Positions 11,156 through 32,353 of a stretch of 32,651 nucleotides of DNA are shown in pieces. The position numbers and the translations under genes are program-made. The stretch's first letter is position 1; the number at the start of each line of letters is the position of its first letter. The stretch is taken from NCBI RefSeq assembly GCF_014696315.1, contig NZ_JACJPX010000086.1:1-32651 (forward strand), in the 5' to 3' direction. Origin of the DNA: Calothrix membranacea FACHB-236. GTDB taxonomy: Bacteria > Cyanobacteriota > Cyanobacteriia > Cyanobacteriales > Nostocaceae. The notes beneath the pieces were generated by a model, which saw only the letters and a list, made by a program, of their open reading frames with translations, made no database searches and was not told the DNA's origin.

Positions 11156-11184
11156 TATAGTTCTGGGTAGGGAAGACTTATGCA
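11156..11184 (-). promoter_or_regulatory. shared upstream element, copy E (histidine kinase)
   Basis: Read on the minus strand: TGCATAAGTCTTCCCTA, then CCCAGAACTATA. It matches the elements upstream of the three exoproteins and of the sigma-like gene in TGCATAAG and CAGAA at the same spacing. The arms TAGGGAA and TTCCTTA are nearly complementary, as are different arm sequences in copies A and B. It ends 32 bp before the kinase ATG, a promoter-like distance. Confidence 0.55.
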
Positions 11185-11189
11185 ATATT

Positions 11190-11253
11190 GGGGCATGGGG
11201 CATGGGGTAATGAGTAATGAGTAATGAGTAATGAGTAATGAGTAATGGGTAAT
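11190..11253. repeat. STRR arrays (GGGGCAT)x2 and (TAATGAG)x6
   Basis: Two heptamer tracts lie back to back upstream of the kinase: GGGGCAT at 11190-11207 and TAATGAG at 11208-11253. TAATGAG is the reverse complement type of the CATTACT array at the kinase 3' end, so the kinase gene lies between inverted STRR arrays. Confidence 0.85.
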
Positions 11254-11259
11254 TTATTC

Positions 11260-11292
11260 TCCCCCTGCTCCCTGCTCCCTGCCTCCCCTGCG
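11260..11292. repeat. STRR-like heptamer tract (CTCCCTG)
   Basis: CTCCCCCTGCTCCCTGCTCC and a degenerate continuation match the interior of the MITE-like repeats near glyS and murD, but the flanking MITE sequence is absent here. Confidence 0.6.
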
Positions 11293-11323
11293 TCCTTATT
11301 CGGGAATATTAGCCTGTAATGTT

Positions 11324-11496
11324 AATGTATCGACTTACATTGCGATTGTATCGCGTAACATTGTTAATGCATCGATTTACATTGCAATTGTATAGGGTGA
11401 CATTGTTAATGTATCGATTTACATTGCGATTGTATGGGGTGACATTGTTAATGTATCGACTTACATTGCGATTGTATGGGGTGACATTGTTAATGT
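11324..11496. repeat. 21-bp tandem array, 8 units (four 42-bp pairs)
   Basis: Eight contiguous 21-bp units alternate between two types: AATGTATCGAYTTACATTGC(G) and ATTGTATGGGGTGACATTGT(T), so the higher-order unit is 42 bp (starts at 11324, 11366, 11408 and 11450). The array ends 18 bp before the stop of the TPR-CHAT gene. It is clearly related to the array at 25796-25987. Its open frame reads heptapeptides (LMYRFTL/RLYGVTL) and I do not call it a gene. Confidence 0.88.
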
Positions 11497-11513
11497 CCGC
11501 GATGCCATGACGA

Positions 11514-14150
11514 CTAAGTCCAATTTCCTAGCAATACAAAGGCTCCCCAGTAGTATGGTGATTGATATTCTGGGTTCTTTAAAACGGCAATTTGGGCGCG
11601 TCTGAGGGCTTCAGCTTTAGAAATACCTGTTTGATTGGCTTTTACTAGTTGGTTATAAAACTCGCTAATTAGAGTGGCCGTTGCTTCATCATCTACACGC
11701 CAGAGAGTTGCTACTGTACTCCGGGCCCCAGAACGTACTGCTACACCTGCTAATCCCAAGGCGGAACGATTGTCACCGGCTGCAGTTTCGCAAGCGCTAA
11801 GTACCAGGAGTTCCAGGGAGTTATTTCGGGATACTTCGACAGTTTTTAATACGCCACTAAGTTGGTTAACTTTGATTTTGCCATCCCAAGTGAGAATAAA
11901 TGTGTCATCAGCTTGGGAGCTAAATTGACCGTGGGTAGCTAAGTGGACAATTGGGAAGGAAATCGCAGAGATTTTGTTTTGAAAGGCAGAATTTGTAAAG
12001 CTTTGGTTAAATAGGACTTGCGAAGGAACTTCTGATTTAATGGTGTTCACTTCCTTCTCGACATTGGGTAAAGCTGAAAACCCTGAACGTGCTTCACTTA
12101 GCCCACCTACTAAGGCTCCTAAACGTTCTTGTTTAAGCGATCGCGGTGCTAATAATTGTAGTCCTGGTGTGAGGGCTATGCTGTATTTTTCCACAAGGAA
12201 CTGTTTACCATCATGCAGTGCTGCCATTGGAATGTTCCGCAAAACTCCATCTAAGACAAATACTAATGTCTCTACTTGACTAGCGGCTAAGTCTGCTGCT
12301 TCTGGTCGCAGTACTAAATCATACATTTTTTGCAGTTGGGGAAGCGTCTTATCTAGGAGGGTTGGTTGGTTGATTCCTTCACCTAGCTGGGATGCTAGCC
12401 GCTCGATTTCTTCACGGGTGATGGTTGTTTTATAGTAGCGAAAATCACGGTTGTCTTTCTTTTCGGCTTTTGTGTTGGAGTTTGGTAAGCTGGCAATAAT
12501 CGCTAGCTGATTGTCAAGAATAATTGGGTAAATCACCGCTGCTTTTGTATCAACCTGATCTACTTGTGCCAGGTTTCCATTTAGGCAAGCTTCGCGAAAA
12601 AAGTTATCAAGTTCAACTAATTGCAAGCCTTCAATGACATCTCGCGCTGTCTTCAAACTATCTTTTTGATTGGATTCCACCAACAAGCCGACGAGTTGAC
12701 GGTGAATTGGTTCAACTGCTTCACGGAAGGAAAATTGCAAATCGGGATTAGCGGCGGCTAAGTCTGCACGCAGAGATTTGATTGTACCCACAGCTTCTTT
12801 ATAAGCTGCGATCGCACTATTATTTTTCCCTTGGGCTGCCAACACTCTACCTAATTGCCATTGCCAACGATAGGCGATATCTCCGGCGTTAATTTGTTGT
12901 CCTAATTGCACTGCTTGTTGAGTTAATTTTTCTGCCTCTGCCCACTGTTGTGTCTGTTCGGAAACATGACCTAAGCTACCTATGGCATCAGCTTGTATGC
13001 GTACATCGCCTAAATCTTTAGCTTGTTGTACCGCTATTGCCAGTAGTTTAGCGATTTCTTCCCAATCAATCTGCCCAACTGCTTGCTTTTGCATTTGGAT
13101 CATTGTTTGCGCCAAATTCACCCGTGATGCGATCGCACTCCGGCTAGCAGGTAGGGCTGCAATTTGTTGTTGTACTTGTGGTAACAAGGCTTTGGCTGCA
13201 TCTAGCTGCTTCGTCTCCACCAGCAAGCTGAGTTGATTAACTTGCGCTTGCACCTTTAAATCTGGGATTCCAGATGCAGCGGCTTGTTGGTAGTAATCGA
13301 TTGCAGTCTGAGGATCAATCTCAGTCTTGTTAGCTTTATTCAAGCTGATTTGCGCCCGGGTGAGATTACCGAGACTTAGTTGGTTGAGAGTAACGATTTC
13401 AGGTAATTTTAACTGCTGTGCGATCGCTAAACTGCGTAACAAAATTAAATTGGCTGGGTCAAAACTCCCCACAACCCGCAGCGACTCACCCAAAGTTCGC
13501 AAAGCTGTTGCTGTTTCTGGTGTTGCAGGGACTTTTTCTATTGCTGGCTTGAGTTGTTCAGCCTTGGTAGTAGAAATCTGCGGTAACTTTAACGCCGTTT
13601 CCAGTAGAGAAATTGCTTTTTTATAAAGACCTAAATGTTGGAAAGCCTGTGCTTGGTTAACTTGACTCGTCAGCGCCTTATTTGGTTTATTTAACTGACT
13701 ATATAAAGATGTTGCACCTTCCCAAGATTTAAAAGCCGCCTCAGCTTGACCGCGTGCTAATTGTAACCCACCTCTAATATCTAAAGCTTGAGCCAAAGCC
13801 AATGATTTCTCTGCTTTTGTATCTTTTATAGTATTTAAAATATCAACACTTTCTGTAATTGCCCGGTTCGCATCATCCCACTGTCCCAACTGTTGATAAC
13901 ACAGCGATAAATTACTCAAACTCAACGCTTGCAGGATAGGTTCTTTAGCTGCTTGATAACCTTTAGCTGCTTGTTGAAACAACTGCGCCGCCTCTGCAAA
14001 CTGCCCTTTAGCGTATGAATTTCGCGCCTGCTGTTCCACAGATAAACTAGGAACTTGAGCGATATTTGTCACCTGCGCTAACCCTGGCGATGTCATAGAT
14101 AATAAAACTGCGATCGCCATCAACACCACAAACCTTTTAATCTTCCTCAT
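11514..14150 (-). CDS. exported TPR-CHAT domain protein (caspase-like fold)
   Basis: The 878-residue protein begins with a Sec signal peptide (basic MRKIKR, hydrophobic core, likely cut near GLAQ at 25-26). Residues from about 40 to 480 are tetratricopeptide repeats (for example NSYAKGQFAEAAQLFQQAAK and LSNLSLCYQQLGQWDDANRA). The C-terminal third is a CHAT domain with an intact candidate catalytic dyad: His740 in VHLATHGQF and Cys787 in VLSACETAAG. It ends in the usual YYWGAFVLLGNW. CHAT domains are caspase-related cysteine proteases, although activity of this one is not shown. Export would place it in the periplasm or outside. It follows the exoprotein genes by 138 bp on the same strand and could act on them. 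A GCGCAGAG repeat and an AGGAG one base from the ATG precede the start, so initiation is not certain. Confidence 0.88.
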   Translation of the reverse strand: MRKIKRFVVLMAIAVLLSMTSPGLAQVTNIAQVPSLSVEQQARNSYAKGQFAEAAQLFQQAAKGYQAAKEPILQALSLSNLSLCYQQLGQWDDANRAITESVDILNTIKDTKAEKSLALAQALDIRGGLQLARGQAEAAFKSWEGATSLYSQLNKPNKALTSQVNQAQAFQHLGLYKKAISLLETALKLPQISTTKAEQLKPAIEKVPATPETATALRTLGESLRVVGSFDPANLILLRSLAIAQQLKLPEIVTLNQLSLGNLTRAQISLNKANKTEIDPQTAIDYYQQAAASGIPDLKVQAQVNQLSLLVETKQLDAAKALLPQVQQQIAALPASRSAIASRVNLAQTMIQMQKQAVGQIDWEEIAKLLAIAVQQAKDLGDVRIQADAIGSLGHVSEQTQQWAEAEKLTQQAVQLGQQINAGDIAYRWQWQLGRVLAAQGKNNSAIAAYKEAVGTIKSLRADLAAANPDLQFSFREAVEPIHRQLVGLLVESNQKDSLKTARDVIEGLQLVELDNFFREACLNGNLAQVDQVDTKAAVIYPIILDNQLAIIASLPNSNTKAEKKDNRDFRYYKTTITREEIERLASQLGEGINQPTLLDKTLPQLQKMYDLVLRPEAADLAASQVETLVFVLDGVLRNIPMAALHDGKQFLVEKYSIALTPGLQLLAPRSLKQERLGALVGGLSEARSGFSALPNVEKEVNTIKSEVPSQVLFNQSFTNSAFQNKISAISFPIVHLATHGQFSSQADDTFILTWDGKIKVNQLSGVLKTVEVSRNNSLELLVLSACETAAGDNRSALGLAGVAVRSGARSTVATLWRVDDEATATLISEFYNQLVKANQTGISKAEALRRAQIAVLKNPEYQSPYYWGAFVLLGNWT

Positions 14151-14154
14151 ACTC

Positions 14155-14180
14155 CTCTCTGCGCCTCTGCGCCTCTGCGT
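14155..14180. repeat. tandem 8-mer repeat (GCCTCTGC)x3 at the TPR-CHAT start
   Basis: Three copies of an octamer (CTCTGCGC phase) abut the start codon of the TPR-CHAT gene and provide the AGAGAGGAG sequence just before its ATG. This repeat type is common next to genes in Nostoc-like genomes, from memory. Confidence 0.65.
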
Positions 14181-14288
14181 GAAATAAAAAAATGAAATCA
14201 GTTTTGATAAAAATTTTCAGATGAGGCAATTCAAGATTTAGAATTGTTATTTTCTGATTCAGATGATGAATAAAGTAGGGAACACTTA

Positions 14289-16976
14289 CTAAGATTTTGG
14301 ACACATCGCAGAACTACTAATACCAGCAGGTGTTGCTGTTGGTACTTCGGCAACCAGCATAATATTACCGTCAGCCGTTTTCACTAACCCTTGCGCCTCA
14401 ACAATTTGTGAAGAATTCCCCACATCTTCCTTGACTCGCGTCTGTGCGTCAGTCTTGACAATTCGCTGCTTAGTATCAACATTTTCCCCATCCAAACTGG
14501 CTAAAGGACTGAGGCTAGTTGTTAAAGCAAGCGGTTCAAAGGAATTGGGCGGTAAACTACCACGTCCAGTAACGACAAAGCTACCCAAGGGTTTAGCATT
14601 AGGGCCTCTGGGGCAAGTTTGAGCAAATTTTGTACTAGCATCAACTAATCCTGTTGGTAGTTCAATGAGTTTTTGTGGCGGTTGAACTTCTGGTTGAGTG
14701 ATAGTGATTTGTCCCTGTACGCCTAATTGAGAACTGGCAGTGATATCGCTTTGATTTGTTAGTTGGGGACGAGGTTCAATACCAAAGATAGCCTGAGTGC
14801 TGATGTTGACATTACCACCTTTACCAGTGAAGGCATTAGCGGAGATATCGCTGTTTTCGTTGGGTAAAGCGACAATAAATGTTGAGTAAATATTGATGTT
14901 CCCTCCATCTCCACCTGTTTCGGCTTTACCTGCGTTCGTAGAAATTTGAGCGCCACGACGGAGTAAGAGTAAGCCGTTGTTAAGGTTGATGTTACCTCCG
15001 TTACCAGATGTAGATTCGGCCTTGAGAGTGCCACTGTTATCTAGGGTAACTTTAGGTGAGGTGACAATAATATCTCCAGCAGTACCCGTACGACTTTCGG
15101 AGTTAACGAACAAGCCACTGTTAAGGTTAAAACTTGTGCTAGAAATGGTGAAAAAATCAGTAGCATTAACTTTGATTATGCCAGCATTCCCCTGTCCAAA
15201 AGTTGAGGCTAGAAGTTGAGCACCGTCTCGTAATAAGAAATTATCAGCATAGATGGTAATATCACCCCCATTACCAACTGTTCCTTTCTCCACGTTGCTG
15301 CGAATACTACTGAGACGATCATTATTGCTGCCAGCAATATCAACAATACCTGTAACTTTGACATTGACATTCCCTGCGTCCCCCCGCCCAGCTGGCTGGG
15401 TTTTAGATGCACCACGAGTAATAGTTTGCAGTTGAGCGCCATCAAATAGTGATAGGGTGGCAGCATTGATGTCGATATTCCCACCCTGACCGATACCCCC
15501 TGCTTCTACTGTGCTTAAGATGGAAGCGTTATTTGCAATGGCGACAGCATTTTTTGCAGTCACTGTCACATTCCCCGCATTCCCCTGTCCAAAAGTTGCG
15601 GTTGTAAGTCCAGCGGTGTCTCGTAATGAGAAATTACCAGCATCGATAGTAATATTCCCACCCTGACCGATACCCCCTGTTTCTACTCTGCTGAAGATGT
15701 AAGCTTTATTTGCAATGGCGACAGCATCTTTTGCAGCCACTGTCACATTCCCCGCATTTCCCTGTCCATAAGTTGAGGCTACAAGCAAAGCGCCGTCTCG
15801 TAATGAGAAATCATCAGCATAGATACTAATATTACCTCCATTGCCTTTTTCTCCTGAGCGCACAAAATTGCGAATTGTGCTATCAGAGATAACCATTTCT
15901 CCTGTTGCATTCAAGGTAATATCCCCCACAACAGTTTCAGGTGTCCTCAAACCTAGTCCAATACTCGTAGAAAGCAAACTTCCACCCAAAATTTTTAAAT
16001 TTCGGGCATTGACTGCAATATTACCGCCCCCACTACCAGTTACAAATACACGTGCATTAGTAAAGGAGACATCTGCACGAGTTATATTCTCCGGAAATCC
16101 CAAGCTCAAATTATCCCCATTAAATAGAAGATTGATATTTCCAGATTCCGCTAACCCTCCCAACTCAACTCGCCCGCCATAAGCATTTAATTGTCCACCA
16201 TTTATGCTGACATTACCACCCACAAGCAGCAAACTCTTGCCATCTGGAACCCTTAAACCCAAAGCATTAAAACCTAATGTATCTTTTCCGGCTGGTGCAA
16301 TTGAATTATTTTGAATCGCTGCATTTTGATTAATTTGATTAAACAGCAACGCGGAAGGATTAATAGTTAACAAAAGTGCTGCTTGCGGATTTGTAGCACT
16401 AAAAATTCCCTGATTACCAAATTGCAAAGCATTAGCAGTAGTCCCAACAAACGAACCGCGCACATCTAACCGTGCATTTTGCCCAAATAAAATGCCATTA
16501 GGATTAATTAAAAATAAATTAGCAATGCCATCAACTCCCAAAGTGCCGAGAATATTTGAGCCTTGTCCACCTGTCACCCTTGTGAGAATATTTTGCACGC
16601 CAGCAGGATTACCAAAATACACTCGTTGCCTATCATTAATATTAAACTCGCTAAAACTGTGAAACAGATTGCTACCACGTACAGCCCCACCATCAATTTT
16701 GTCGGCGTTTGCACCATTAATTAAAACATTGGGTGTGATACGAGAACTTTCTGCGCCTAAAGTATTATCCGGGTTGATTTGACTGTAGGCTGGAGTGCTA
16801 CTCAGCAGAATGAGGCTACATAATATGAGCTTTGGTTGCACAGTGATCATTGCGAATATTCGCCAAAAGACCTCTTGAAAAGAAGTGCGATCGCATTTAG
16901 ATCGCTTTATTCTATCTTGTTGCACTTGCAACTTACTATCGCAATTCCGTTGGAGCCAGTTATGTATCTGATTCAT
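14289..16976 (-). CDS. filamentous haemagglutinin-like exoprotein 1 (TPS/TpsA type), 895 aa
   Basis: The protein has a long N-terminus (about 65 residues) ending in a hydrophobic segment and SSTPAYSQ, a likely signal peptidase site. A two-partner-secretion (haemagglutination activity) domain follows at about 66-310, with the family-typical NPAGVQNILTRVTGG and NPNGILFG (158-165). The rest is a right-handed beta-helix of repeats such as GNAGNVTVAAKDAVAIANKA, with DGAQL...STFGQGNAG motifs. The C-terminus is conserved among the three paralogues (FGIEPRPQLTNQSDITASSQ, LPTGLVDASTKFAQTCP, KTADGNIMLVAE, SSSAMCP) and has two cysteines, Cys788 and Cys892. Such proteins are secreted through an outer-membrane TpsB pore as adhesins or surface fibres; no tpsB is in the window. 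It is last in the exoprotein array, and copy A of the shared element lies 48 bp upstream. Confidence 0.88.
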   Translation of the reverse strand: MNQIHNWLQRNCDSKLQVQQDRIKRSKCDRTSFQEVFWRIFAMITVQPKLILCSLILLSSTPAYSQINPDNTLGAESSRITPNVLINGANADKIDGGAVRGSNLFHSFSEFNINDRQRVYFGNPAGVQNILTRVTGGQGSNILGTLGVDGIANLFLINPNGILFGQNARLDVRGSFVGTTANALQFGNQGIFSATNPQAALLLTINPSALLFNQINQNAAIQNNSIAPAGKDTLGFNALGLRVPDGKSLLLVGGNVSINGGQLNAYGGRVELGGLAESGNINLLFNGDNLSLGFPENITRADVSFTNARVFVTGSGGGNIAVNARNLKILGGSLLSTSIGLGLRTPETVVGDITLNATGEMVISDSTIRNFVRSGEKGNGGNISIYADDFSLRDGALLVASTYGQGNAGNVTVAAKDAVAIANKAYIFSRVETGGIGQGGNITIDAGNFSLRDTAGLTTATFGQGNAGNVTVTAKNAVAIANNASILSTVEAGGIGQGGNIDINAATLSLFDGAQLQTITRGASKTQPAGRGDAGNVNVKVTGIVDIAGSNNDRLSSIRSNVEKGTVGNGGDITIYADNFLLRDGAQLLASTFGQGNAGIIKVNATDFFTISSTSFNLNSGLFVNSESRTGTAGDIIVTSPKVTLDNSGTLKAESTSGNGGNINLNNGLLLLRRGAQISTNAGKAETGGDGGNINIYSTFIVALPNENSDISANAFTGKGGNVNISTQAIFGIEPRPQLTNQSDITASSQLGVQGQITITQPEVQPPQKLIELPTGLVDASTKFAQTCPRGPNAKPLGSFVVTGRGSLPPNSFEPLALTTSLSPLASLDGENVDTKQRIVKTDAQTRVKEDVGNSSQIVEAQGLVKTADGNIMLVAEVPTATPAGISSSAMCPKS

Positions 16977-17024: not shown

Positions 17025-17053
17025 AGTATTTCTGGGTAGGTGTAACTTATGCA
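17025..17053 (-). promoter_or_regulatory. shared upstream element, copy A (exoprotein 1)
   Basis: On the minus strand it reads TGCATAAGTTACACCTA, then CCCAGAAATACT, 48 bp before the exoprotein 1 ATG. TAGGTGT and ACACCTA form inverted arms around the conserved ATTTCTG centre. It is nearly identical to copy B (28 of 29 bases). A TGCATAAG box followed about 20 bp later by AAATACT would suit a promoter with a ~40-nt leader. Confidence 0.6.
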
Positions 17054-17134: not shown

Positions 17135-20100
17135 TTAAGATCCTGGACACATCGCAGAACTACTCGTAGCCGCAGGTGTTGCTGTTGGCGCTTCAGCAAC
17201 CAGCATAATTTTACCGTCAGCAGTTTTCACGAAACCTTGCGCCTCAACAATTCGCGAAGTTTTCGGCAGATTCGCCGTTGGGGATGCATTCGATACATTG
17301 CTGAAACTTTCCCCATCCAAACTAGCTAAAGGACTGAGGCTAGTTGTACCTGTTAATGGTTCCAACGTATTGGGTGGTAAACTACCTCGTCCAGTAATCA
17401 CAAAGCTACCCAAGGGTTTAGCATTGCGGCCGTTGGGGCAAATTTGGGCAAATTTAGTACTAGCGTCAACTAATCCTGTTGGTAGTTCGATGAGTTTTTG
17501 TGGCGGTTGGACTTGTGGTTGAGTGAAGATGATTTGTCCCTGTATGCCTAATTCAGAACTTGCAGTAATATCACTTTGATTTGTCAGTTGCGGACGAGGT
17601 TCGATACCAAAGATAGCCTGAGTGCTGAGGCTAACATTACCACCTTTACCTGTGAAGGCATTAGCGCTAATATCGCTGTTCTCGTTGGGTATAGCGGCGA
17701 TAAAGGGTGAATTAATACTGATATTACCGCCATCACCGCCAGCTTGTGCCCTACCTGCGGTGGTGGAAATTAAACCGCCACGGCGCAACAGTAATAAATC
17801 ACCAATTTCGAGGATGATGTCTCCACCATTACCTGCATTTGTCAAAGATGCTATTCCACTTCCTTGACCATTAATTTCTAAAAAATTAGCCCTAATTCTC
17901 ATGTTTCCGGCATCACCATTACCTATACTACCGGAAAAAATTTCAGCATCATCACGGACAACAAGGCGATTTGTCGTAATATCTATTTCGCCACCTTTAC
18001 CATTAGCCCTTTCGTCAACGGATGTTACTAAGCCAGTTCCCAACTCGCTGTCTGAACCTGTCAGTATAATGTTATCAGCTTGTACTGTTAAATTACCCGC
18101 GTTTCCATTTCCTCTAGTTCCTGATGATATCTGCGATTGTTCTTGTACATTTAATAGTTGAGTTTTGATGCTGATATTGCCAGCATCGCCTCTAGCTTCG
18201 TTCTCAACTTGAGTGATAATGTTGCTACTTCCACCCATATTAATTTGCTCGGCATTAATCGCAATTTTTCCCGCATTACCTTGATTAAAAGTAGTCGCAG
18301 AAATTTGTCCTTGATTGCTGAGGTTTAAGCGTCCTGTTGTTACATCAATACTGCCCCCAGAACCAATTCCTCCCACTTGCAAATCAGCAAATAAACCTGA
18401 TGGTGCAAAAGAATTATCAAGTCGTTGTGGCCCTACCCCACTAATATCAATAAAATCAGTGGCACGAACCACTAAATTACCACCTTGTCCTCGTCCGAAG
18501 AGTACTGAAGTTGATATGTTTGCACCATTACTCAGGCGCAACCTTTCTGAGTCAATAGTTATCGTGCCACCATTTAGATCTGCATTACTTCCATTAACTT
18601 CAGAGGAGATTCTACTAATAAAGTTGATACCACCGAAGCGAGATAAAGTTTCTTGTGCTAACGGGTTAGACAAAACTGCTTGCACATTAGTGTAATCTAG
18701 TTCAATCAACTGTTCCTGAGGTACGAAAACAAACCCATCTAGTTCTAAATCCTTGGCGCGGATAGTAATATTTCCAGGATTACTACTGCTTGTAGAATCA
18801 GTGCTGATATTTCCCCCTTGAGTTAGGCTGAGTCTGGGTGTTTGTATCGTGACATTACCTCCATTCCCCGTTGCCTCTAAACCTGTTTGACTTGATACAC
18901 CACTCAAGTTTAGAGATGTTGCAGAAACACCACTAATCTCTACATACTCATCAGCTTTGATAAAAATGTTACCTGCATTCGTACTGCTAAAAGTGCTTGT
19001 ACTAATATAGCCCCCATCTTTGAGACTAACTCGCTGGGTTTCAATGGTAATATCCCCTGCACTTGCTTGAGATATACTTCCGGGTTGAACACCTGTAAGG
19101 ATGCTACCATTAGTCACCTCAACTGCATTCCTAGCTTGAATGGAAATAGAACCCACCGTTCCAGCACTAGTATTTGCTGTGATTCCTCCTTCTGGGGAGG
19201 TATTTTGAACTCGCAAAGTGCCAGTTTCAATTCGCAGGTTACCTGTTGAACCTGAACTCAAGCTAGAAAGTCCTAAAATACCTTTGTCGGTTATATTGAC
19301 AGCATCTGTTGACCGTAAATTGAAGTTTCCCGCTTTACCTACACCTGCAGATATAACAGAGACAGCGCCGCCATTGACATTAACAGACTCAGTAGTATTA
19401 AGGTTCAGGTTTCCTCCATTACCTGCACCTCTGGTACTTACTGAGACAGCACTGGTCAGACCAGTATTTTGTAAGATTCCATCTCCGTTAATTGTGATTT
19501 TTCCAGCATTGATAGTAACATCGCCACCCGTACCTTCACCATTGTTAGCAGAGAAAATCGAGCTACCGTTAGCAAGAGTAACTGCATCGCTGGCTTGAAT
19601 TTGAATATCACCCCCGTTCGCTGCACCAGAAGTAACGCTCTGAATTGAAGACTTTTGATCTAAACTCAGTTGCGTTGCATCAATCACAATTGAGCCGCCA
19701 TTGTTGCCAAAAATAAACGAATTATTGAGCTTAATCTCCTCCCCAAATAGTTCAATTTCACTATTGCCAATTGCCAGGATGAAGCTGCGATTCGTTAAGT
19801 TGATAGATTCTCGTTGTAAATTTTCTGGGAAATTGAAATCTAAAGATGAGTTATTAACATCCAACCCAACTGTTGTATTTCCCGCCACAGATCCTAGTTT
19901 CACTTGTCCATCAAAGGCAAATAATATACCTCCATCCAAGATAATTTCACCGCCTACTAATGCTAGGGTGCTACCACTAACACCTAAACCGTTAACAGCT
20001 TGATTAGTAATACTTGCAGGTTGAGAACCAAACTGTAACCCGCTTGGGACATTGATAGTTAATAAAGGTGGTGATTGGGGATTGGTGGCGCTAAACTCCA

Positions 20101-20711: not shown

Positions 20712-20740
20712 AGTATTTCTGAGTAGGTGTAACTTATGCA
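20712..20740 (-). promoter_or_regulatory. shared upstream element, copy B (exoprotein 2)
   Basis: On the minus strand it reads TGCATAAGTTACACCTA, then CTCAGAAATACT, ending 43 bp before the exoprotein 2 ATG. TTACACCT (20703-20710) and AGGTGTAA (20725-20732) are perfect 8-bp inverted arms. It differs from copy A at one base of 29. Confidence 0.6.
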
Positions 20741-23800: not shown

Positions 23801-25421
23801 TACCGCCATTACCCACAGCATCCGTTTCTACGGAACTGAAAATCCTACTACCATCTGTAAGTAAAACAGTATCCTTTGCTTGAATAAAAACACTACCTGC
23901 ATTACCTTGTCCATAAGTGCCAGCACTAATTTCGCTGTTATTAAGGAAAAGTGAGTCAACATTAATATTGATATTTCCTCCATTTCCTCGCCCAACGGGT
24001 AATTCTTGATAAACTCCGATGACATCCGTTGCTAATACAGCATCATCATTAAGAGACAGCAAAGCAGCATTGATATTAACGCTACCACCATTACCTACGG
24101 CTCCGCTGGCCACGCCGCTGTAAATACCTGTCTTGCTACCTAGAGACACAGCATTAGATGCTTGTATAAATATATTGCCTGCGTCGCCCTGCCCCAAGGT
24201 GCTGACATTAATTAACGCTTCTTTATCTAAGTTCAACGAACCTGTGGCAATATTGACATCACCAGACTTACCAAATGCTCGTTCGCGTACAGAGTTGCTG
24301 ATAATGCTTTTATCAGTTAAAGTTGTTGTCCCTGTGGCATTAATGACCACATCTCCACTTTTACTATTTGCTGTACCTAAACCGATTTCTATTCCGGCAC
24401 GCAGTTTACTGTCCCCTGTTAAGTTTACATTTCGCCCATTAATCTTGATGTTCCCGCCATCTGCACCCCGGACGTTGACTTCTGCGCCATTGCTGAGAGA
24501 AACATCTGCACGTTCTACGCCATCGGGTATCGCTAAACTAGGCAAATTATTAGCAGCAAGATTCAGTCCTAGTGTTGCGGGTGCATTTATAGCAGCTAAT
24601 TCAATATTGCCGCCATAAGCCCGGAGTCCACCGCCATCAATGTTGATATTTCCACCAATTAGCAATAGATTCTGATTATCTGCGACTCTTAATCCTGTAA
24701 CATTTTCACCCGCAGGACTGATACCTGCTGTTGCTTGGGATTGATTGGTAATTGGTTTGGGATTAATTTGATTAAACAACAACGCGGAAGGATTAACAGT
24801 TAATAAAGGTGGTGCTTCGGGATTTGTAGCGCTGAAAATTCCTTGATTACCCAATTGCACAGCATTGGCGGTAGTTCCCACAAATGAACCGCGTACATCT
24901 AAGCGCGCATTTTTCCCAAATAAAATACCGTTGGGATTAATTAAAAATAAATTAGCAATGCCATCAACGCCTAATGTGCCGAGAATATTTGAAGCTTGTC
25001 CACCAGTCACCCGCGTGAGAATATTTTGCACGCCAGCAGGGTTGCCAAAATACACTCGTTGCCCATCATTAATATTAAACTCGCTAAAACTGTGAAACAG
25101 ATTGCTACCACGTACAGCCCCACCGTCAATTTTGTCGGCGTTTGCACCATTAATTAAAACATTGGGTGTGATGCGAGAACTTTCTGCGCCTAAAGTATTA
25201 TCGGGGTTGATTTGGCTGTAGGCTGGGGCGCTGCTGAAGAAGATGAGGCTACATAATATGAGCTTTGGTTGCCCAATTATCATTGCGAATATTCGCCAAA
25301 AGCCGTCTTGAAAGGAAGTGCGATCGCAAGAGGAAGATTTTGCAGATGGCTTCGTTCTCCGTCGTTTTACTACCAATTGAGTATCGCAAGTACGTTGTAG
25401 CCAGTTCTGTATCTTATTCAT
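20844..25421 (-). CDS. filamentous haemagglutinin-like exoprotein 3 (TPS/TpsA type), 1525 aa
   Basis: This is the largest of the three. Its N-terminus has a slightly longer, very basic insert (VVKRRRTKPSAKSSS) before the shared CDRTSFQDGFWRIFAMI and the signal core, ending SSAPAYSQ. The TPS domain is close to that of exoprotein 1 (NPAGVQNILTRVTGGQASNI, NPNGILFG). The beta-helix is built from many regular units of about 50-60 residues, with the pattern GNAGNI-I-A-DTV-DG, then GNGG-I-TGSL-NGG-ISS-T-GQ. The C-terminus again carries the KFAQ/QFAQTCP and SSSAMCPGS cysteines. It is first in the transcription order of the array; copy C of the shared element lies 48 bp upstream. It is likely a long secreted surface fibre or adhesin. 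Confidence 0.88.
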   Translation of the reverse strand: MNKIQNWLQRTCDTQLVVKRRRTKPSAKSSSCDRTSFQDGFWRIFAMIIGQPKLILCSLIFFSSAPAYSQINPDNTLGAESSRITPNVLINGANADKIDGGAVRGSNLFHSFSEFNINDGQRVYFGNPAGVQNILTRVTGGQASNILGTLGVDGIANLFLINPNGILFGKNARLDVRGSFVGTTANAVQLGNQGIFSATNPEAPPLLTVNPSALLFNQINPKPITNQSQATAGISPAGENVTGLRVADNQNLLLIGGNINIDGGGLRAYGGNIELAAINAPATLGLNLAANNLPSLAIPDGVERADVSLSNGAEVNVRGADGGNIKINGRNVNLTGDSKLRAGIEIGLGTANSKSGDVVINATGTTTLTDKSIISNSVRERAFGKSGDVNIATGSLNLDKEALINVSTLGQGDAGNIFIQASNAVSLGSKTGIYSGVASGAVGNGGSVNINAALLSLNDDAVLATDVIGVYQELPVGRGNGGNININVDSLFLNNSEISAGTYGQGNAGSVFIQAKDTVLLTDGSRIFSSVETDAVGNGGSIDIQAGSLSIIEGSEINTRTFGQGNGGKIAINARDTISLDGFGKNSQIASRIISAVTPSSIGNAGDIQLTAGSVSISNDAFISASTLGKGNAGNIIIDALDTITFDTNARIISNVFTDAVGNGGDVRVKTGSLLFSNGSNISTNVLGQGNAGNITVEASDTVKLDGVTTREVNGNVFDSTSGLSSSLLTGGVGKAGDISVTTGSLFVTNGADISSSTSGQGNAGNITINARDTVTFAGFAGETSIYSQASSNVDLRGIGNGGDIRISANTLLFQNGGTLQAFNGGEGNGGNIFLDAKNSITFDGFDGNGLNSAAVTYAYNGDAGGIQVKTGALFLTNGGRMSTSILGKGQAGNITIEASDTVEVNGFISNVTLPNGTVVDIGSGLQSNLFSGEGKGGEIQITTGSLAVTNGGQISSNTGGKGDAGDITINARDTVTFDGVSRNGFMSNAGSVVLSDAIGNGGNIQVNAKALLLNNGGQIDTFSAGQGNAGSIFINTLDSVVIDNGSSLNSYATESGNGGKIQVNTGTFSLTNGGTFLTAARRNAGNITINAHDAVIVDGVDRDGFSSSLLSILFDGGIGKAGDIEVTTNSLTASNGGVLSASSVGNGSAGKITINAFDSITFEGVGSSGVPSGVYTTLENQGEGKGGDINLITGSLSVLGGAISSTTLAKGDAGNITINARDTIILDGAGRGNIVNLENIERRSSLSGIFSAVTIGGTGNAGNIDIKAGNVRISNKAGITSATLAGNGGNITLDIRDFLLLRSGGFVTTTAGVQQAGGDGGNITINSPFLVAVPNENSDISANAFRGKGGNVNINVQNIFGTEARPQQTNQSDITASSQLGVQGQITISQPEIQPPQKLLELPTGLIDATTQFAQTCPRDYNAKPLGSFVITGRGSLPPNVLEPLALTTSLSPLASLDGENADTKQRIVGTDAQIQLKEDVGNSSQIVEAQGLVKTADGNIMLVAEVPTATPAGISSSAMCPGS

Positions 25422-25469: not shown

Positions 25470-25498
25470 AGTATTTCTGGGGATGTGTAACATATGCA
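25470..25498 (-). promoter_or_regulatory. shared upstream element, copy C (exoprotein 3)
   Basis: On the minus strand it reads TGCATATGTTACACATCC, then CCAGAAATACT, 48 bp before the exoprotein 3 ATG. The TGCATA box and CAGAAATACT are kept; the middle has diverged and the inverted arms pair only with a bulge. Confidence 0.55.
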
Positions 25499-26103: not shown

Positions 26104-26123
26104 ATTACGAATTACGAATTATT
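26104..26123. repeat. STRR heptamer (TTACGAA)x2-3 at the DUF928 stop
   Basis: ATTACGAATTACGAATTATT abuts and includes the stop codon of the DUF928 gene (26119-26121). Confidence 0.55.
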
Positions 26124-26874
26124 TAGGTTGATTTCTCGCTGCCGATGGTGGTGTACATACATTAGCAACAAATTCATTACGTTGTTTTACAAAAGATGCA
26201 GAGGGTTTTTCTACTTGGTAAAGACTTTGGAAAGCATCAGACCAAGGGTGAAATATGCCTGTTTCAGTTGTGTGTTTAATTTCGTAGTTAATTAAGAAAT
26301 CAGCTTTTTTCAAAGCAATTTCTTCAGGAGAGGCTTTAGTTGCTTTCAGTTGTTGTTCTAATGTTTGCAATTCATCCTGAATTTTTTGGCGATCGCTTGC
26401 TTCCATTACCTGAAATGTTGTCCAGTTGTTGCTACCGGATAGTTGCCATTGGTAGAATTTGCCTGGTTCTAAAGGCTTTTCAGCATCGTAAGTAGCTTGT
26501 TGATCGGCGATTTTGACGGATTTTTGCCAAACTACTTTTTCAGTTTCGTAATCGCGGACAACTACTTGAGCATCTTGATTATTACCAGGACTGTGCCATA
26601 AAAATAAGGGGCGATCGCTCCACAATTTATATGTTTCTACTAAACCAGGAGAAATTGCACAGACTGGTTGCACTACACCTCTAGAGGCTAGGCGTTTTTT
26701 GGGGCGACGTTGCCAAAATAAGCCTACCCAATCGACAGATTGCGCGATGGTTTGTTGTGTTTGCCGAATATTTTGAGCGTTGGCAAGGTTTTCACTGACG
26801 ATACTACCGGAAGCGATCGCTAAAGGAATGAGTGCAAAGCCCAAAAGTGACTTGCGATTATTAATTTTAAACAT
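26119..26874 (-). CDS. exported DUF928 family protein
   Basis: This 251-residue protein has a Sec signal peptide (FKINNRKSLLGFALIPLAIA, likely cut after NANA near 34). The mature part matches, from memory, the cyanobacterial DUF928 family: a basic RRPKKRLASRG, then PVCAISPGLVETYKLWSDRP, LFLWHSPG and an immunoglobulin-like stretch (VVVRDYETEKVVWQKSVKI, YQWQL), followed by a helical C-terminal part. No catalytic residues are evident; it is probably a periplasmic binding or accessory protein. Its ATG lies 2 bp after the stop of the CHAT-CHASE2 gene and its Shine-Dalgarno AAGGAG is inside that gene, so the two are co-transcribed and probably translationally coupled. Function unknown; the coupling suggests it works with the CHASE2 sensor. 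Confidence 0.85.
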   Translation of the reverse strand: MFKINNRKSLLGFALIPLAIASGSIVSENLANAQNIRQTQQTIAQSVDWVGLFWQRRPKKRLASRGVVQPVCAISPGLVETYKLWSDRPLFLWHSPGNNQDAQVVVRDYETEKVVWQKSVKIADQQATYDAEKPLEPGKFYQWQLSGSNNWTTFQVMEASDRQKIQDELQTLEQQLKATKASPEEIALKKADFLINYEIKHTTETGIFHPWSDAFQSLYQVEKPSASFVKQRNEFVANVCTPPSAARNQPK

Positions 26875-26876
26875 GA

Positions 26877-29291
26877 TTATTTTCTCCTTGTAGCTGGTAA
26901 AACGTAGGCTAAAAACACCGACGAGGGTAAAAACCAGGGTAGTAAAATTGCGGCTGTTATATAAATTTGCAGTCCCACTAAACCATATAAAATTACAGCA
27001 CCGACTGCGCCGAAGGTGATTTGCCGACGACGCGTGAGACTTAAACGCGATTGGCTTTTAATCACGAAGACCGTGATTTTACCAAGAATCATGGCAATCC
27101 CAATCAGCAAAATGCTGGGGATGGGAATTACCAAACGATTGCTAACAAAATGGTGAATCATATATGCCAATGTTTCACCGCCTGTCAGCCAAGGCTGTTG
27201 TGTCCAATAACTGTATGCAGCTGGCGCTGGGGAACGATCTGGTTGTCCTGGTGCTATTCCTAACCTGTCATCGTTACCCACCGCAATTAACACTACCTGT
27301 TTGGACACTAAAGGGAATTTGTTGATATCGGGATTTTCAATTAATTCCCAAGCGGGAATTTTTGTATAAACTTGGTTAGGCGGAATTGAGTAATCAAGAA
27401 TGGGTTGAATATTAAAAGGCGATCGCCATTGCCATAGTTGTGATAAGTTACCTTTTTGGGAATGCTGCTGCACCACATCCAAGAACTCAGCCCGTAAATT
27501 CTTCTCGCGGTTGGTTTGCGGTTGGGGTAAATCGGTAATTTCTTGCTTGGCTAACTGCACCAGCGATAGCAAATATGCAAAGGGACAAACTTGACGACAA
27601 TCGCTGTCGGCTTCTGGGAATTCTAGTAAGTTGGGGTAAGCATCAATGTATCCTTGCAATGTCCAATTCCACTTGTTAATCCCTAATGCTTCGTTTGTCC
27701 CCACTTCTCTTGTTGGTTCCTGTACCGCCGCAAACAGTAACCATGTGTTAGCATCCACCGCCTGACGCACGGCTGTCGCTAAATCTGCATCAGCATTTGG
27801 GGGATCGGTTTGGGGTGTATCAAAAATAAAGTCTAAGCCGACAACAGAAGCATTTAATTTGCGCGTACTATCCAGCAGCTTGGCGACATAACTGCGGTTC
27901 ATGGGGAATAGTTGCGAATTTGGCAACTGGGCGCGGTAAATTGATTCAGTATCAATTTGCACTAAAGCAACGGGTGGGGCTTCTTCGGCATCAACTTGGG
28001 CGGTAGCGCTGCGGTAAACTGCCTGAGTAAGGGTGCGTCCATCTAATAATAGTGATTGCATAGGTGCCAAAACGCTGCACAAGACACCCACAGTTAGCGC
28101 GATCGCCTCTAAGCGGTTGGGTATACTTTGACGCAGCCGTTGTCGCCAGTGGAAGGGGGGAATACGGTAAAGGTGAGCGCCAGGATGACAGAATAATGAA
28201 GGTAAAAGGTAGGCTGAAGGATAGGTGTGGCTTTTATCCATACGTAAATATTGCCTAGCACCAATCACCGCTTCGTAGACATTCTGGTGTTTCCCCAACC
28301 CTTGCAAAAATCTCACCAAAAAATCTTGGGCGACACGGTTATGAATCGGTTCGCGCATCACCACAACTTGTCCAAAACCCAAATCAATCAAAGATTCTGC
28401 TAGGTTTAACCCACTACAGGAATTAAAAATTGCTACTTGCAGTCCGCGTTTTCTGGCGGCGCTGAGTTGTGATGCAATTTCGCTAATGGAAATCGATACA
28501 CCAGGCGCAATCCCTAATTCTCCGCCTGTCATTTCCGTTTCGTTGCTGTGTCCCGCGAAAAATAACACATCCCAACCCCGTTCATCGGCGATCGCATCGG
28601 CAATTTTCTCAATAATTTCCGTGGGTGTTTCTTCTAGCTTCCAACTGACAAATTCCACATCAGCAATCTGGAACAGCGATTTTAAAGTTTTCTTTTCTTC
28701 TTGAAAATCCAACCCTGTATCATCGCCTAAAATTGCTAAAATCCGGGTGCGTCCCTGACGTTTATCAGGATGGTGTGTACCTGTTTCCTGAGAAATATTT
28801 AAGGGAGTGCGGATAAATTGAATCGCCCCGGTGGTAGCAAATTCAGTCCCTAATTCCCACGCTTCCCAAGGAAAACGATCCAATTCCACAGGCGCACAGG
28901 TCAGAAATACTTGCACCGCCTCATCCGTTTCGGGATGTTCCTTAACCAGTTGCTGGCTAGATTGAGCAATTTGGGCACGAATTTCATATAATTCTGCACT
29001 GCGTAACCAGCGATGAAATTCATACATCAACTTAGTTTCCGCTTTCACCAGTTCCGCGTGCCAATCTATCGCCAGCCTAGCGACACCACCATCAACCGCC
29101 CTTCCCCGCATTTGATCGGAACGATAAAAATTAAGATATGCCCGTCGCCAGTCTTGATACAACTGACTGAGGGCAGAAGGATAATTAACCTGTGCAGTTA
29201 ATCTTTGCCCTTTGCCCCAAGATAGTTCAAATAAACAAATTTGTTCTATTTTTTGAACTTTAAGATTAAAAAGATAAGAGTTAAGTTTCAT
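26877..29291 (-). CDS. CHAT-CHASE2 membrane protein (caspase-like domain fused to a periplasmic sensor)
   Basis: The 804-residue protein has, in order: an N-terminal region without a signal peptide; a CHAT domain at about 125-375 with the candidate dyad His248 (FFAGHSNE) and Cys292 (FNSCSGLNL); a transmembrane segment at about 396-415; a CHASE2 domain at about 420-715 (VALVQIDTESIYR, VVGLDFIFDTPQTDPPNADA, VVLIAVGNDD); and three membrane segments at the C-terminus. The topology puts CHAT in the cytosol and CHASE2 in the periplasm. CHASE2 is a sensor domain usually fused to kinases, cyclases or phosphodiesterases; here the only recognisable output is the N-terminal CHAT domain, so it would couple envelope sensing to a caspase-like protease. 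Activity is inferred. It overlaps functionally with DUF928 downstream and follows the DUF1822 gene by 111 bp. Confidence 0.88.
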   Translation of the reverse strand: MKLNSYLFNLKVQKIEQICLFELSWGKGQRLTAQVNYPSALSQLYQDWRRAYLNFYRSDQMRGRAVDGGVARLAIDWHAELVKAETKLMYEFHRWLRSAELYEIRAQIAQSSQQLVKEHPETDEAVQVFLTCAPVELDRFPWEAWELGTEFATTGAIQFIRTPLNISQETGTHHPDKRQGRTRILAILGDDTGLDFQEEKKTLKSLFQIADVEFVSWKLEETPTEIIEKIADAIADERGWDVLFFAGHSNETEMTGGELGIAPGVSISISEIASQLSAARKRGLQVAIFNSCSGLNLAESLIDLGFGQVVVMREPIHNRVAQDFLVRFLQGLGKHQNVYEAVIGARQYLRMDKSHTYPSAYLLPSLFCHPGAHLYRIPPFHWRQRLRQSIPNRLEAIALTVGVLCSVLAPMQSLLLDGRTLTQAVYRSATAQVDAEEAPPVALVQIDTESIYRAQLPNSQLFPMNRSYVAKLLDSTRKLNASVVGLDFIFDTPQTDPPNADADLATAVRQAVDANTWLLFAAVQEPTREVGTNEALGINKWNWTLQGYIDAYPNLLEFPEADSDCRQVCPFAYLLSLVQLAKQEITDLPQPQTNREKNLRAEFLDVVQQHSQKGNLSQLWQWRSPFNIQPILDYSIPPNQVYTKIPAWELIENPDINKFPLVSKQVVLIAVGNDDRLGIAPGQPDRSPAPAAYSYWTQQPWLTGGETLAYMIHHFVSNRLVIPIPSILLIGIAMILGKITVFVIKSQSRLSLTRRRQITFGAVGAVILYGLVGLQIYITAAILLPWFLPSSVFLAYVLPATRRK
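26884..26889 (-). promoter_or_regulatory. Shine-Dalgarno of the DUF928 gene inside the CHAT-CHASE2 gene
   Basis: AAGGAG on the minus strand lies 9 bases before the DUF928 ATG and within the last codons of the upstream gene, supporting the chosen start and translational coupling. Confidence 0.7.
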
Positions 29292-29402
29292 ATTTAGCTA
29301 ATTTACTTTTTTCGCGCAGTGGCGCAAAATCAGAACACAAAAACCCAGTTTTTGTCAATCAAAACTGTTAATTCTTAATTCATGAATACAGTCTCTAGTT
29401 CC

Positions 29403-30701
29403 TTACAAAGTTTGCAATTCTAAACCAAAAGGTGGAATTTCAAATACAGCCTCATCAGTAATGACTGTTACCCAGAATTTTTCGTTCCAATCGCCAATCA
29501 CTTGAGCGTACAGTATGCCTTGGCTGGTATCTGATAAAGTCTCCTCAAATAATATTTGTGTTTCATCACGTACCTCTAAAGTTAATTGATTGGGCATAGG
29601 TCTTTCTGGTTGAGAGCCTACAGCAACTAACAACATCCATTCAGGGTTTGCGGAATTTTCTGATAGCACCCACATAATTGCGTATAATCGCAAACTCCCT
29701 TCTTCACATTCCAAATCACGAAATGCACCCCGTGCTGTGTTAGGAATATAAACACCTTGATGTTCTAATCCTGCACGAATTTGCTCAAAATCATCTTGCA
29801 AAGAGCGTAATTGTAAAGTACGTAATTGCGAAAATGCTGGTAATGGCATCAGCATCCATCCCAACTCTTGAGCAGCAAGGTCTATTTGATTATTTAACCA
29901 CAAACCGACATTAATTAATGGTTGAATTAAACTAGGATTAGTAGCTTTGTGAACCCAGTTGATTAATTCTGGGCTACTTAATAATGTTATTCCTTCGTTA
30001 ACTGTTAACAATTCCCAAGGCTGCTGTTTTTGCAACTGTGGTTTTAGCGTTGTTAGCTTTTGTTTTAAAGCTGTTTTATTAGTGTATCGATTTGTTACAG
30101 GTAGTTGAATTGCTTGTGGATTCAGACAGCGTAAATTTAGCAGTAAAGCGTCAGAGTCAGGATTAAACCAAAGTTGAGGTAAAGTATAAGTCCAATCTTC
30201 TTCTACAGGTAACTGTGCCTTGACTTGATAGCGATGGTATTCTTCATAGTTCATAAAACCAGATACAGCTACTTGGTTTTGTTCCTCTTCTACCTGGATC
30301 AACACATAGAAATGAGCCGCAAAATCAGGAATATCAAAAACTGCATTGGGAACCCGATGTTGGTCAGTTAAGACGCTAGCGGTGATGATACAAATTTTGA
30401 AAGCTCCCACTTGAATATTACAAGCTGCTGACAATAAATCTGCTGTTGCTGGTTGCCAAATCGAAGCAGAATCAATGTTAATTTCTAAATCAGACGCGCG
30501 GTGTTTCAGCCATTGTTCAAATCCTAAAACACCTAATGCACACAGATAAACTTGCCAGCGTTGTTGTGAAAAATGAACTGATTGGCTTAAACTTGCAGCC
30601 CTTTGAAAATGCTCAGGTAATAATTCTGTGCGAGTTTCATTCAGGGAATACCAGTCGGGGTAATCAGCCAAATCGAAATCTGAGGTAGGTTGGTTAATCA
30701 T
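29403..30701 (-). CDS. DUF1822 family protein
   Basis: The 432-residue soluble protein (ATG at 30701, MINQPTSDF) belongs, from memory, to cyanobacterial DUF1822, which is repeatedly found next to sigma-like and CHASE2/CHAT genes. Visible features are an N-terminal LPEHFQRAASLSQSVHFSQQ, a conserved GVLGFEQWLK, DFAAHFYVLIQVEEEQNQVA with VSGFMNYEEYH, and NVGLWLNNQIDLAAQELGWM; the C-terminal part is beta-rich. The frame is open two codons further to a TTG, but the ATG is the better start. That ATG overlaps a TTGACCA heptamer repeat. There is no signal peptide or membrane segment. It lies between the sigma-like gene (116 bp gap) and CHAT-CHASE2. Its function is unknown; a role as regulator or substrate of the neighbouring proteins is a guess. 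Confidence 0.8.
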   Translation of the reverse strand: MINQPTSDFDLADYPDWYSLNETRTELLPEHFQRAASLSQSVHFSQQRWQVYLCALGVLGFEQWLKHRASDLEINIDSASIWQPATADLLSAACNIQVGAFKICIITASVLTDQHRVPNAVFDIPDFAAHFYVLIQVEEEQNQVAVSGFMNYEEYHRYQVKAQLPVEEDWTYTLPQLWFNPDSDALLLNLRCLNPQAIQLPVTNRYTNKTALKQKLTTLKPQLQKQQPWELLTVNEGITLLSSPELINWVHKATNPSLIQPLINVGLWLNNQIDLAAQELGWMLMPLPAFSQLRTLQLRSLQDDFEQIRAGLEHQGVYIPNTARGAFRDLECEEGSLRLYAIMWVLSENSANPEWMLLVAVGSQPERPMPNQLTLEVRDETQILFEETLSDTSQGILYAQVIGDWNEKFWVTVITDEAVFEIPPFGLELQTL

Positions 30702-30817
30702 GGTCAAGAGTCAATGGTCAAGGTTCAAAAGTTAACAAATAAAATTAATAATGTCGCTAAATATATTTGCTCTATCTTTTCTTACTTTGGGTTCTCTACA
30801 TTGCGTTTAAATAATCT

Positions 30818-32233
30818 TTACTTTACCTCGCTTCTATTATCTAAATAATGGCAAAGACGACGAGCTAAAAGACCAGATAAAGGCTGATTGCGTACAGGGT
30901 TCTTTACTTCAGATTCAGCTTCTTGCATCACTCCAGAAATTTGCTCATCTAAAATTAATTTCAACTGCTGATCTAAACGTTGCAACCGTTCAAAATTCGT
31001 AAATTCTTGCGCTATTTGCAAAACGCGATCGCGTAAAATCAACAACATGCTTTGGCGAATATCAGCGCGCAGTTCATTTAACTTTAATAACCGGGTAACT
31101 TCATATTGTTTTTTCATTCCCAATTGCGGTGCAATTTGGCTCATTGGTTGACCTTGACAATGAAAAAGATGTAACCCAGTCAAATATAATCGCCTAATTT
31201 CTTGATTAGTGTTGCGCTTACTTTGGAGTTTACCGAGAGCAACTTCCACAACGTGAGAGATAGCTGCGTCTAAGGATGTCAAAAATTCTTCTTGATATAA
31301 ATTCATGAAATCAACTTTGTCATCCTCTTCTTCAGTCAAGAGCGATCGCTCTACAATTGGTTGAATCTCCGGCTGATCGTAAGCAACTGACGCAATGTAA
31401 CCGCCTTGAGCCGCAATGCGGTATTGTCTGAGCTTACTAGCCATCGCTTGCAATTGGTTTAACATCGCCTCCTGGCTCAGTTTGCGATTCGTCCGACTTT
31501 GCAAATCATTAATCATGCGAGTTAACTGTTCTGCTGTCGGGATTTGACAGGGTTGGTTTACTCCTGCCAGTTTTTGCTGCAAGCGGTCTTCACGGTAAAC
31601 TGCGTGATAACTAATCAACAATTGGCAAACTTGCTCAATTTCCATTGGCGTTAGGTGATACATATCCGCGAGAATGCGTTGTAATTCCTTCGGGTTAGTA
31701 TCATTCAACAGCGCCCAATCGCTGATCAAAAACACACCATGCTGAAGTAAAAATCGTTTGATTTCTGCATTTTGTTTGACATAGCGACTTACCCATGCAT
31801 TGAGCGAACCTTTAGCTGGCTCAAATGTTTTTAACAGCTTTGTGGCTAAAGACTCATAAGTAGACTTGCGTACTCTTGGTTGATTAGAAGTTCCTGATAT
31901 TACTTGGTCATCTAAAACAAAAGGTAACAACTCTTCAGTAGTAAAGCCGTGGCGATTGCCAAATCTCATTGTTAAATCAAGACAAACTCGATATATTTGC
32001 TGAGATATATAGCACCGCAAACAAATTTCCGCTAAGTTAGCTTCTTCAGTATCGCTCACTTTACCTTGTTGCATTTGTTGCCACAGATAGCGTGCGATCG
32101 CAGCATCAGAAACCTCGCCCTTGCCGGCAAATTCTTTTTGAAAATAAGTTTGAGCCGCTACTATCATTTCCACCCGGCGCTTACTTGTAGAATCTAACTT
32201 GACAAATTCCCAGTATTTTGATGATTGAACCAC
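30818..32233 (-). CDS. sigma-70-like regulatory protein
   Basis: The 471-residue protein looks like a divergent sigma-70 family factor. The middle has FEPAKGSLNAWVSRYVKQNA, which resembles sigma region 2, and the C-terminal third has MSQIAPQLGMKKQYEVTRLL (about 362-385), which resembles the region 4 helix-turn-helix. The intervening part is helical. The start is GTG at 32233 because the frame is closed by a stop a few codons upstream and there is no ATG before residue 23. A strong AGGAGGTG lies 40 bases upstream with no start codon at a useful distance. Copy D of the shared element is 91 bp upstream, so it may regulate itself. It heads the cluster with DUF1822, CHAT-CHASE2 and DUF928. Confidence is good that it is a gene and moderate for sigma function. 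Confidence 0.7.
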   Translation of the reverse strand: MVQSSKYWEFVKLDSTSKRRVEMIVAAQTYFQKEFAGKGEVSDAAIARYLWQQMQQGKVSDTEEANLAEICLRCYISQQIYRVCLDLTMRFGNRHGFTTEELLPFVLDDQVISGTSNQPRVRKSTYESLATKLLKTFEPAKGSLNAWVSRYVKQNAEIKRFLLQHGVFLISDWALLNDTNPKELQRILADMYHLTPMEIEQVCQLLISYHAVYREDRLQQKLAGVNQPCQIPTAEQLTRMINDLQSRTNRKLSQEAMLNQLQAMASKLRQYRIAAQGGYIASVAYDQPEIQPIVERSLLTEEEDDKVDFMNLYQEEFLTSLDAAISHVVEVALGKLQSKRNTNQEIRRLYLTGLHLFHCQGQPMSQIAPQLGMKKQYEVTRLLKLNELRADIRQSMLLILRDRVLQIAQEFTNFERLQRLDQQLKLILDEQISGVMQEAESEVKNPVRNQPLSGLLARRLCHYLDNRSEVK

Positions 32234-32324
32234 GGGATTTTTCGTTAATTGCAGCTAATTACCTCAATTTTTTCACCTCCTACCAGGAAAAGCAATTTGC
32301 TGAGTATCTGTAACTCTATTTCCT

Positions 32325-32353
32325 TATATTTCTGAGGAGGGTGAACTTATGCA
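32325..32353 (-). promoter_or_regulatory. shared upstream element, copy D (sigma-like gene)
   Basis: On the minus strand it reads TGCATAAGTTCACCCTCC, then TCAGAAATATAA, 91 bp before the GTG start. TGCATAAGTT and CAGAAATA match the exoprotein copies at the same spacing. Its presence in front of a sigma-like gene suggests autoregulation or a common regulator. Confidence 0.55.

Follow-up and report, generated by a model that had tools for sequence, protein, structure and literature searches.

A conserved promoter-like element upstream of a divergent sigma-like gene and of exoprotein genes in cyanobacteria

We analyzed a stretch of 32,651 nucleotides from the cyanobacterium Calothrix membranacea FACHB-236 (NZ_JACJPX010000086.1, positions 1 to 32,651; this entire stretch is hereafter the window) that contains five copies of a short bipartite element, a candidate promoter for a sigma-like factor encoded in the same window. 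All five copies are on the minus strand, each directed at a start codon, at distances of 32, 48, 43, 48 and 91 bp from the start of the respective open reading frame (ORF). An earlier note, made from the sequence alone, had placed the copies at these coordinates, distances and orientations; a motif search of the window and inspection of the minus strand agree with it. The copies are the following:

11156..11184, minus strand, element copy before the histidine kinase gene, 32 bp from the TTG start, with the -10 end CAGAACTATA
17025..17053, minus strand, element copy before TPS exoprotein A, 48 bp from the ATG
20712..20740, minus strand, element copy before TPS exoprotein B, 43 bp from the ATG
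25470..25498, minus strand, element copy before TPS exoprotein C, 48 bp from the ATG
32325..32353, minus strand, element copy before the sigma-like gene, 91 bp from the GTG; the proposed autoregulatory copy, kept across cyanobacteria

The genes around these copies are:

30818..32233, minus strand, sigma-like protein of 471 amino acids, the proposed reader of the element
29403..30707, minus strand, DUF1822 protein, encoded near the sigma-like gene in 76 of the 80 named loci
26877..29291, minus strand, CHAT (caspase-like) and CHASE2 protein, which fits the published EACC2-caspase-CHASE2 description in its caspase-like and CHASE2 parts
26119..26874, minus strand, DUF928-like protein (23.3 bits, below the Pfam cut-off of 26)
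20844..25421, minus strand, TPS (filamentous haemagglutinin type) exoprotein C (NCBIfam TIGR01901)
17135..20668, minus strand, TPS exoprotein B (Pfam PF05860)
14289..16976, minus strand, TPS exoprotein A (Pfam PF05860)
11514..14150, minus strand, CHAT-TPR protein following exoprotein A, with no element of its own within 3 mismatches
10194..11123, minus strand, histidine kinase (HisKA_3, HATPase_c)
8626..9315, minus strand, NarL-type response regulator, disfavored as the reader of the element

From 32353 onward on the minus strand, the succession is element, sigma-like gene, DUF1822, CHAT-CHASE2, DUF928-like gene, element, exoprotein C, element, exoprotein B, element, exoprotein A, CHAT-TPR gene, element and histidine kinase, followed by a kinase fragment and then the NarL-type regulator.

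With up to 3 mismatches allowed, the pattern TGCATAAGT-N10-CAGAAATA matches these five sites in the window and no others, against a chance expectation of 0.19 matches (mean of 100 dinucleotide shuffles, the largest yielding 3). The letters given for the copies in the earlier note hold in general, except that the copy before the sigma-like gene ends in CAGAAATATA, not in CAGAAATACT. The note had also cautioned that the exoprotein copies might resemble each other because the genes are paralogous, and related flanks were indeed found for all three, so that these copies are not independent and are best counted once; the flanks of the kinase copy, of the sigma-gene copy and of unlinked genomic copies differ from theirs. 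Two minor repeats were observed beside the elements: the same GCGTAGGCGTAGCCCGCCGTAGGCATCGC repeat precedes two of the exoprotein copies (upstream of 17053 and of 20740), and short tandem repeats of GAGTAAT units lie directly upstream of the kinase copy, at about 11185-11260.

The copy before the sigma-like gene recurs in other cyanobacteria. Among 80 named loci, which include close relatives and some strains twice and so are not 80 independent cases, 46 contain the strict motif in the 500 bp preceding the sigma-like gene, and the best upstream match had at most 3 mismatches of 17 in 49, compared with none of 240 shuffled controls. Among orthologues with at least 50% identity, 28 of 30 have an upstream match within 3 mismatches, and 25 of these 28 matches are located 117-155 bp before the start, with varying letters in the spacer. 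The companions of the gene recur as well, DUF1822 in 76 and CHAT-CHASE2 in 60 of the 80 loci, several of which are truncated.

Copies of the element, counted as TGCATAA-N12-CAGANNTA, were then compared with the distribution of the sigma-like gene over 243 genomes of the order. A sigma-like match was detected in 71 of the 243, with at most six candidates scored per genome, so that some absences may be misses. These 71 genomes contain 160 copies, compared with 22 in the 172 genomes lacking a match, and three or more copies are present in 16 of 70 sigma-positive genomes (own genome excluded) versus 1 of 172 negative ones (Fisher p about 8e-9). This association is most pronounced where the sigma-like protein is most similar (E below 1e-95), with 135 copies in 22 genomes, the own genome included; the reversed pattern, used as a control, yielded 9 copies in all 243. 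The histidine kinase served as a second control, with the best nine candidates per genome scored and paralogues included among the matches: with the own genome set aside, at least three copies occur in 12 of the 141 genomes that have a kinase match and in 5 of the 101 that lack one (p = 0.32; 242 genomes). Of the 19 genomes in which a sigma-like protein but no kinase was matched, 5 reach the same threshold, compared with 1 of the 90 in which a kinase but no sigma-like protein was matched. Across genomes, the distribution of the copies follows that of the sigma-like gene rather than that of the kinase.

Placement and composition of the element were examined in sets of 93 and 88 sites, mostly from copy-rich genomes chosen for that reason. 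Of the 93 copies read in context, 89 are intergenic in the sense that they reach less than 150 bp into any ORF of at least 200 amino acids, and the 4 inside ORFs were excluded before later counts; for 72 copies, an ORF was found downstream. Within 250 bp, 62 of the 89 copies have an ORF start on their 3' side (same strand), compared with 28 of 89 on the 5' side (opposite strand), and the distances from core to start codon cluster at 24-65 bp. The consensus is TGCATAAGT-N10-CAGAnATAtA, with a near-invariant TGCATAAG at -35 and CAG before the -10 part. Positions that were not used in site selection are skewed as well (G7, T8, a pyrimidine at 18, A24, T27 and A28), and the spacer and flanks of the 88 sites carry little information. 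Judged from these letters, the element probably represents a promoter with TGCATA as the -35 box, a spacing of 16 bp and AnATAT as the -10 box. At position 23, G is found in 28 of 36 sites from three f15 genomes versus 5 of 32 in three others, with the letters tallied by hand and the groups chosen after inspection; lineage drift of this kind is expected if a factor and its sites drift together.

The products of the downstream genes form groups that recur. After exclusion of four proteins with masked letters, 68 of the 72, mostly from other genomes, were compared all-against-all, and TPR families dominate among the Pfam families listed. Seventeen of the 68 form a TPR group, many with hydrophobic N-termini; four are sigma-like; four are caspase-like with a Tat-like start by eye, one of them confirmed as Peptidase_C14; four look like ABC ATPases; and the rest are pairs and singletons of other kinds. 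By a crude measure, 34 of the 68 have a hydrophobic stretch near the N-terminus. In two named loci (L077 and L080), the element precedes short ORFs with an EELDGISGG leader. In another locus (L177, G165:C160), the element lies 363 bp upstream of a gene that resembles, by eye, the L225 sigma factor, an arrangement that would make a sigma cascade in that genome.

In the own genome (8.81 Mb), two pattern scans, each with up to 3 mismatches and nine matches, recovered the five window copies and a few more, the reversed pattern yielded zero matches in two scans, and a third scan, of eight genomes of the genus, gave further sites. Unlinked copies precede a 1108-amino-acid CHAT-TPR protein (C11:17396), a 735-amino-acid ABC exporter with a C39 peptidase (C80:11007) and a 98-amino-acid peptide with the double-glycine-type leader EELDGVSGG (C137:12599). 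Copies with a weaker or poorer -10 part precede, respectively, a 415-amino-acid TPR protein related to the first of these (C11:21470) and a fourth exoprotein with a TPS domain (C14:8053), whose open frame spans the element, making its start uncertain. Probably, part of the other own-genome matches with 2 or 3 mismatches are due to chance. A paralogue of the sigma-like gene in this genome (G000:C93) has only weak upstream matches, with 4 mismatches. Separately, the gene for the double-glycine-type peptide is followed by one for a 365-amino-acid protein that resembles, by eye, cyclic-nucleotide-binding proteins (L284:3107-4204, G000:C137), and similar proteins are encoded downstream of elements in L087 and L097.

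The 471-amino-acid protein is linked to sigma factors through an intermediate family. The Sigma70_r2 and Sigma70_r4 models gave no match to the window protein up to E = 10, no sigma model is among the Pfam families listed for 34 homologues, and a profile search of PDB sequences returned four weak matches (best E 0.068), none of them to a sigma factor. When the profile of the 34 homologues was compared with the L227 family using hhalign, a probability of 98.2% was obtained over 259 columns, in an alignment spanning the second half of region 2 through region 4. The L227 family, in turn, aligns with classical sigmas at 95.4%, and its member in the own genome scores above the cut-off for Sigma70_r4 and at 23.5 of 24 bits for Sigma70_r2 (25.4 bits in another scan). 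Profile comparison connects the protein to true sigma-70 factors via the L227 family. The latter is a second sigma family in its own right (G000:C2:76816-78063; L227, L228), with Pfam regions 2 and 4; a search of 39 relatives detected it in 33, counting weak matches, and its members in G246 and G248 have weak matches to DUF1822 beside them.

The earlier note had proposed that selection maintains the element, that it is a promoter and that the sigma-like factor could read it. Comparative evidence supports all three proposals: the element is retained upstream of the sigma-like gene across cyanobacteria, co-occurs with that gene rather than with the kinase across 243 genomes, is intergenic (89 of 93) and directional, and has a promoter-like geometry. 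We estimate a probability of roughly 0.75 that the sigma-like protein recognizes the element as its promoter and thereby activates its own operon and a regulon. Under this interpretation, for which the evidence comes from sequence comparison, the element would be a bipartite sigma promoter, with TGCATAAGT in the -35 region and CAGAnATAtA in the -10 region, and its reader, the 471-amino-acid protein, would belong to a divergent branch of the sigma-70 family. This protein would drive its own operon (sigma, DUF1822, CHAT-CHASE2 and DUF928) in a positive loop and would also turn on a regulon that comprises exported TPS proteins, caspase-like and CHAT-TPR proteins, double-glycine-type peptides and the C39-peptidase exporter; in this genus, the regulon would include the histidine kinase. 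The recurrence of the arrangement in distant cyanobacteria suggests one undescribed gene-control circuit.

Several observations weigh against this interpretation. For 21 of the 93 copies, no ORF was found downstream in the stretch examined, and the best match in front of the sigma-like gene exceeds 3 mismatches in 31 of the 80 loci; 29 of these 31 have less than 50% identity, and the promoters in loci without a close match may have diverged, as in sites ending in AGAGTTAAGA. No strict copy was found in 39 of the 71 genomes with a sigma-like match, and the 172 genomes without one show some excess of copies over the reversed pattern (22 versus 7). Genome G028, with three copies, two of them identical, and neither a sigma-like nor a DUF1822 match, is an unexplained exception. 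In a relative from the same genus, G246, elements are present and a sigma-like match is absent; here, only 65 bp separate the start of the DUF1822 orthologue from the end of its contig, on the side where the sigma gene is to be expected, and the absence of that gene is most likely due to a gap in the assembly. Finally, the 471-amino-acid protein matches no Pfam or NCBIfam sigma model, and direct comparison of its family profile with classical sigmas gives a weak match, at 85% over 106 columns of the C-terminal half.

How the factor might be controlled is a matter for a more tentative proposal, which we consider possible but doubtful: the operon would form a sigma switch gated by a caspase, in which CHAT-CHASE2, as a membrane protein, would sense an outside signal and by its proteolytic action free the sigma-like factor from DUF1822 acting as an anti-sigma. 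Via the private promoter described here, the factor would then turn on its own operon together with the exported regulon, in which CHAT, TPR and caspase proteins would themselves be frequent, along with exoproteins and double-glycine-type peptides.

Autoregulated ECF sigma factors activate their own operon via a private -35/-10 pair that is shared with their targets. The proposed circuit is similar in its own-operon promoter shared with targets, but differs in that the factor has 471 amino acids and matches no sigma Pfam model; to our knowledge, the promoter letters match no known ECF group. The same partners, a sigma factor, DUF1822 and a caspase-like CHASE2 protein, are found in the published EACC2-caspase neighborhoods, which contain an ECF sigma factor, as it is called there, with DUF1822 and a caspase-like protein that may carry CHASE2 (PMC8195603). 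That account, in its passages on these neighborhoods, gives gene order and a proposed role, with no mention of a promoter, autoregulation or a regulon (PMC8195603). Our literature searches returned no description of this promoter or regulon, only the gene neighborhood, as far as the relevant parts of that paper go (PMC8195603). An alternative-sigma promoter with a regulon would be of a known general kind, whereas the factor family is little studied and the target set is new. The present analysis provides a promoter, a proposed factor and a target list for a sigma-like family missed by standard domain models, and connects the putative regulation of caspase-like and CHAT proteins in bacteria with the export of surface proteins and of small peptides. 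Since the targets can be read from a genome by motif, the function of a system for which we found only gene order described becomes directly testable.

Another sigma factor, of the SigJ/SigF type or from the L227 family, might own the promoter and also drive the sigma-like gene, an explanation that we consider improbable. The copies without a sigma-like match in G028 are compatible with it, and so is the resemblance of the -10 part, AAATACT, to the aAtacT of the SigJ J-box of Nostoc punctiforme, an extended -10 (GGGaAtacT) that likewise defines a cyanobacterial alternative-sigma promoter class with a genome-wide regulon (PMC6495340). However, in the J-box, as presented in the relevant parts of that report, a conserved GGG precedes the -10 and the -35 is weak (PMC6495340), where the element has CAG and an almost invariant -35, TGCATAAG; identity with the J-box is ruled out on these letters, and the factor proposed here is a different and far more divergent one. 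Moreover, the copies track the sigma-like gene, and no element was found upstream of the L227 family in any of the 10 members examined.

It is slightly less probable still, and in our view quite unlikely, that the element is an operator of the NarL-type response regulator that partners the kinase encoded at 10194-11123, the sigma-like gene being one target among others. The kinase gene has its own element in all 8 genomes of the genus searched, with GGAGG or GGAGA and then a TTG start behind it, and this copy is kept before the orthologous kinase in 7 of 7 other genomes; the kinase and regulator genes form one cluster; and in G246 element, kinase and regulator occur together without a visible sigma-like gene, a case that the contig break explains. 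In the cross-genome search, which covered the kinase, its matches do not track the copies (p = 0.32). Typical NarL-type operators are unlike an asymmetric, directional element with fixed spacing such as this one. Around the sigma-like loci, the kinase was found in 0 and the regulator in 1 of 80, but the flanks extend at most 8 kb, compared with a kinase distance of 21 kb in the window, and this count is uninformative.

A dispersed repeat or mobile element lying near genes by accident, which several copies per genome with a common core and the wider flanks shared by the three exoprotein copies might suggest, is extremely improbable and was rejected on the intergenic location of 89 of 93 copies, the uninformative spacer and flanks of the 88 sites and the similar place kept before the sigma-like gene in distant genomes; the many matches unrelated to gene starts that the earlier note had named as evidence against a promoter did not arise.

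Downstream of its element, the leader of the sigma-like gene contains a second conserved block:

32264..32298 (limits approximate), minus strand, second conserved block in the sigma-like gene leader, AAATTGCTTTT..AGGAGGTGAAAAAATT

In the window and in the leaders of L071-L098, this block reads AAATTGC(T/A)TTT-N5-AAGGAGRTGRAAnAATT and is located about 45-50 nt before the GTG; its AGGAGGTG part is present in 24 of 30 close orthologues. The block resembles a strong ribosome-binding site that lacks a long ORF, and may be a tiny upstream ORF or an RNA control element. At the other end of the gene order, a kinase-like protein encoded between the kinase and the regulator (window 9441-9896) matches HisKA_3 with no match to an ATPase domain; it is kept in 7 other genomes of the genus searched and is therefore not a decaying remnant.

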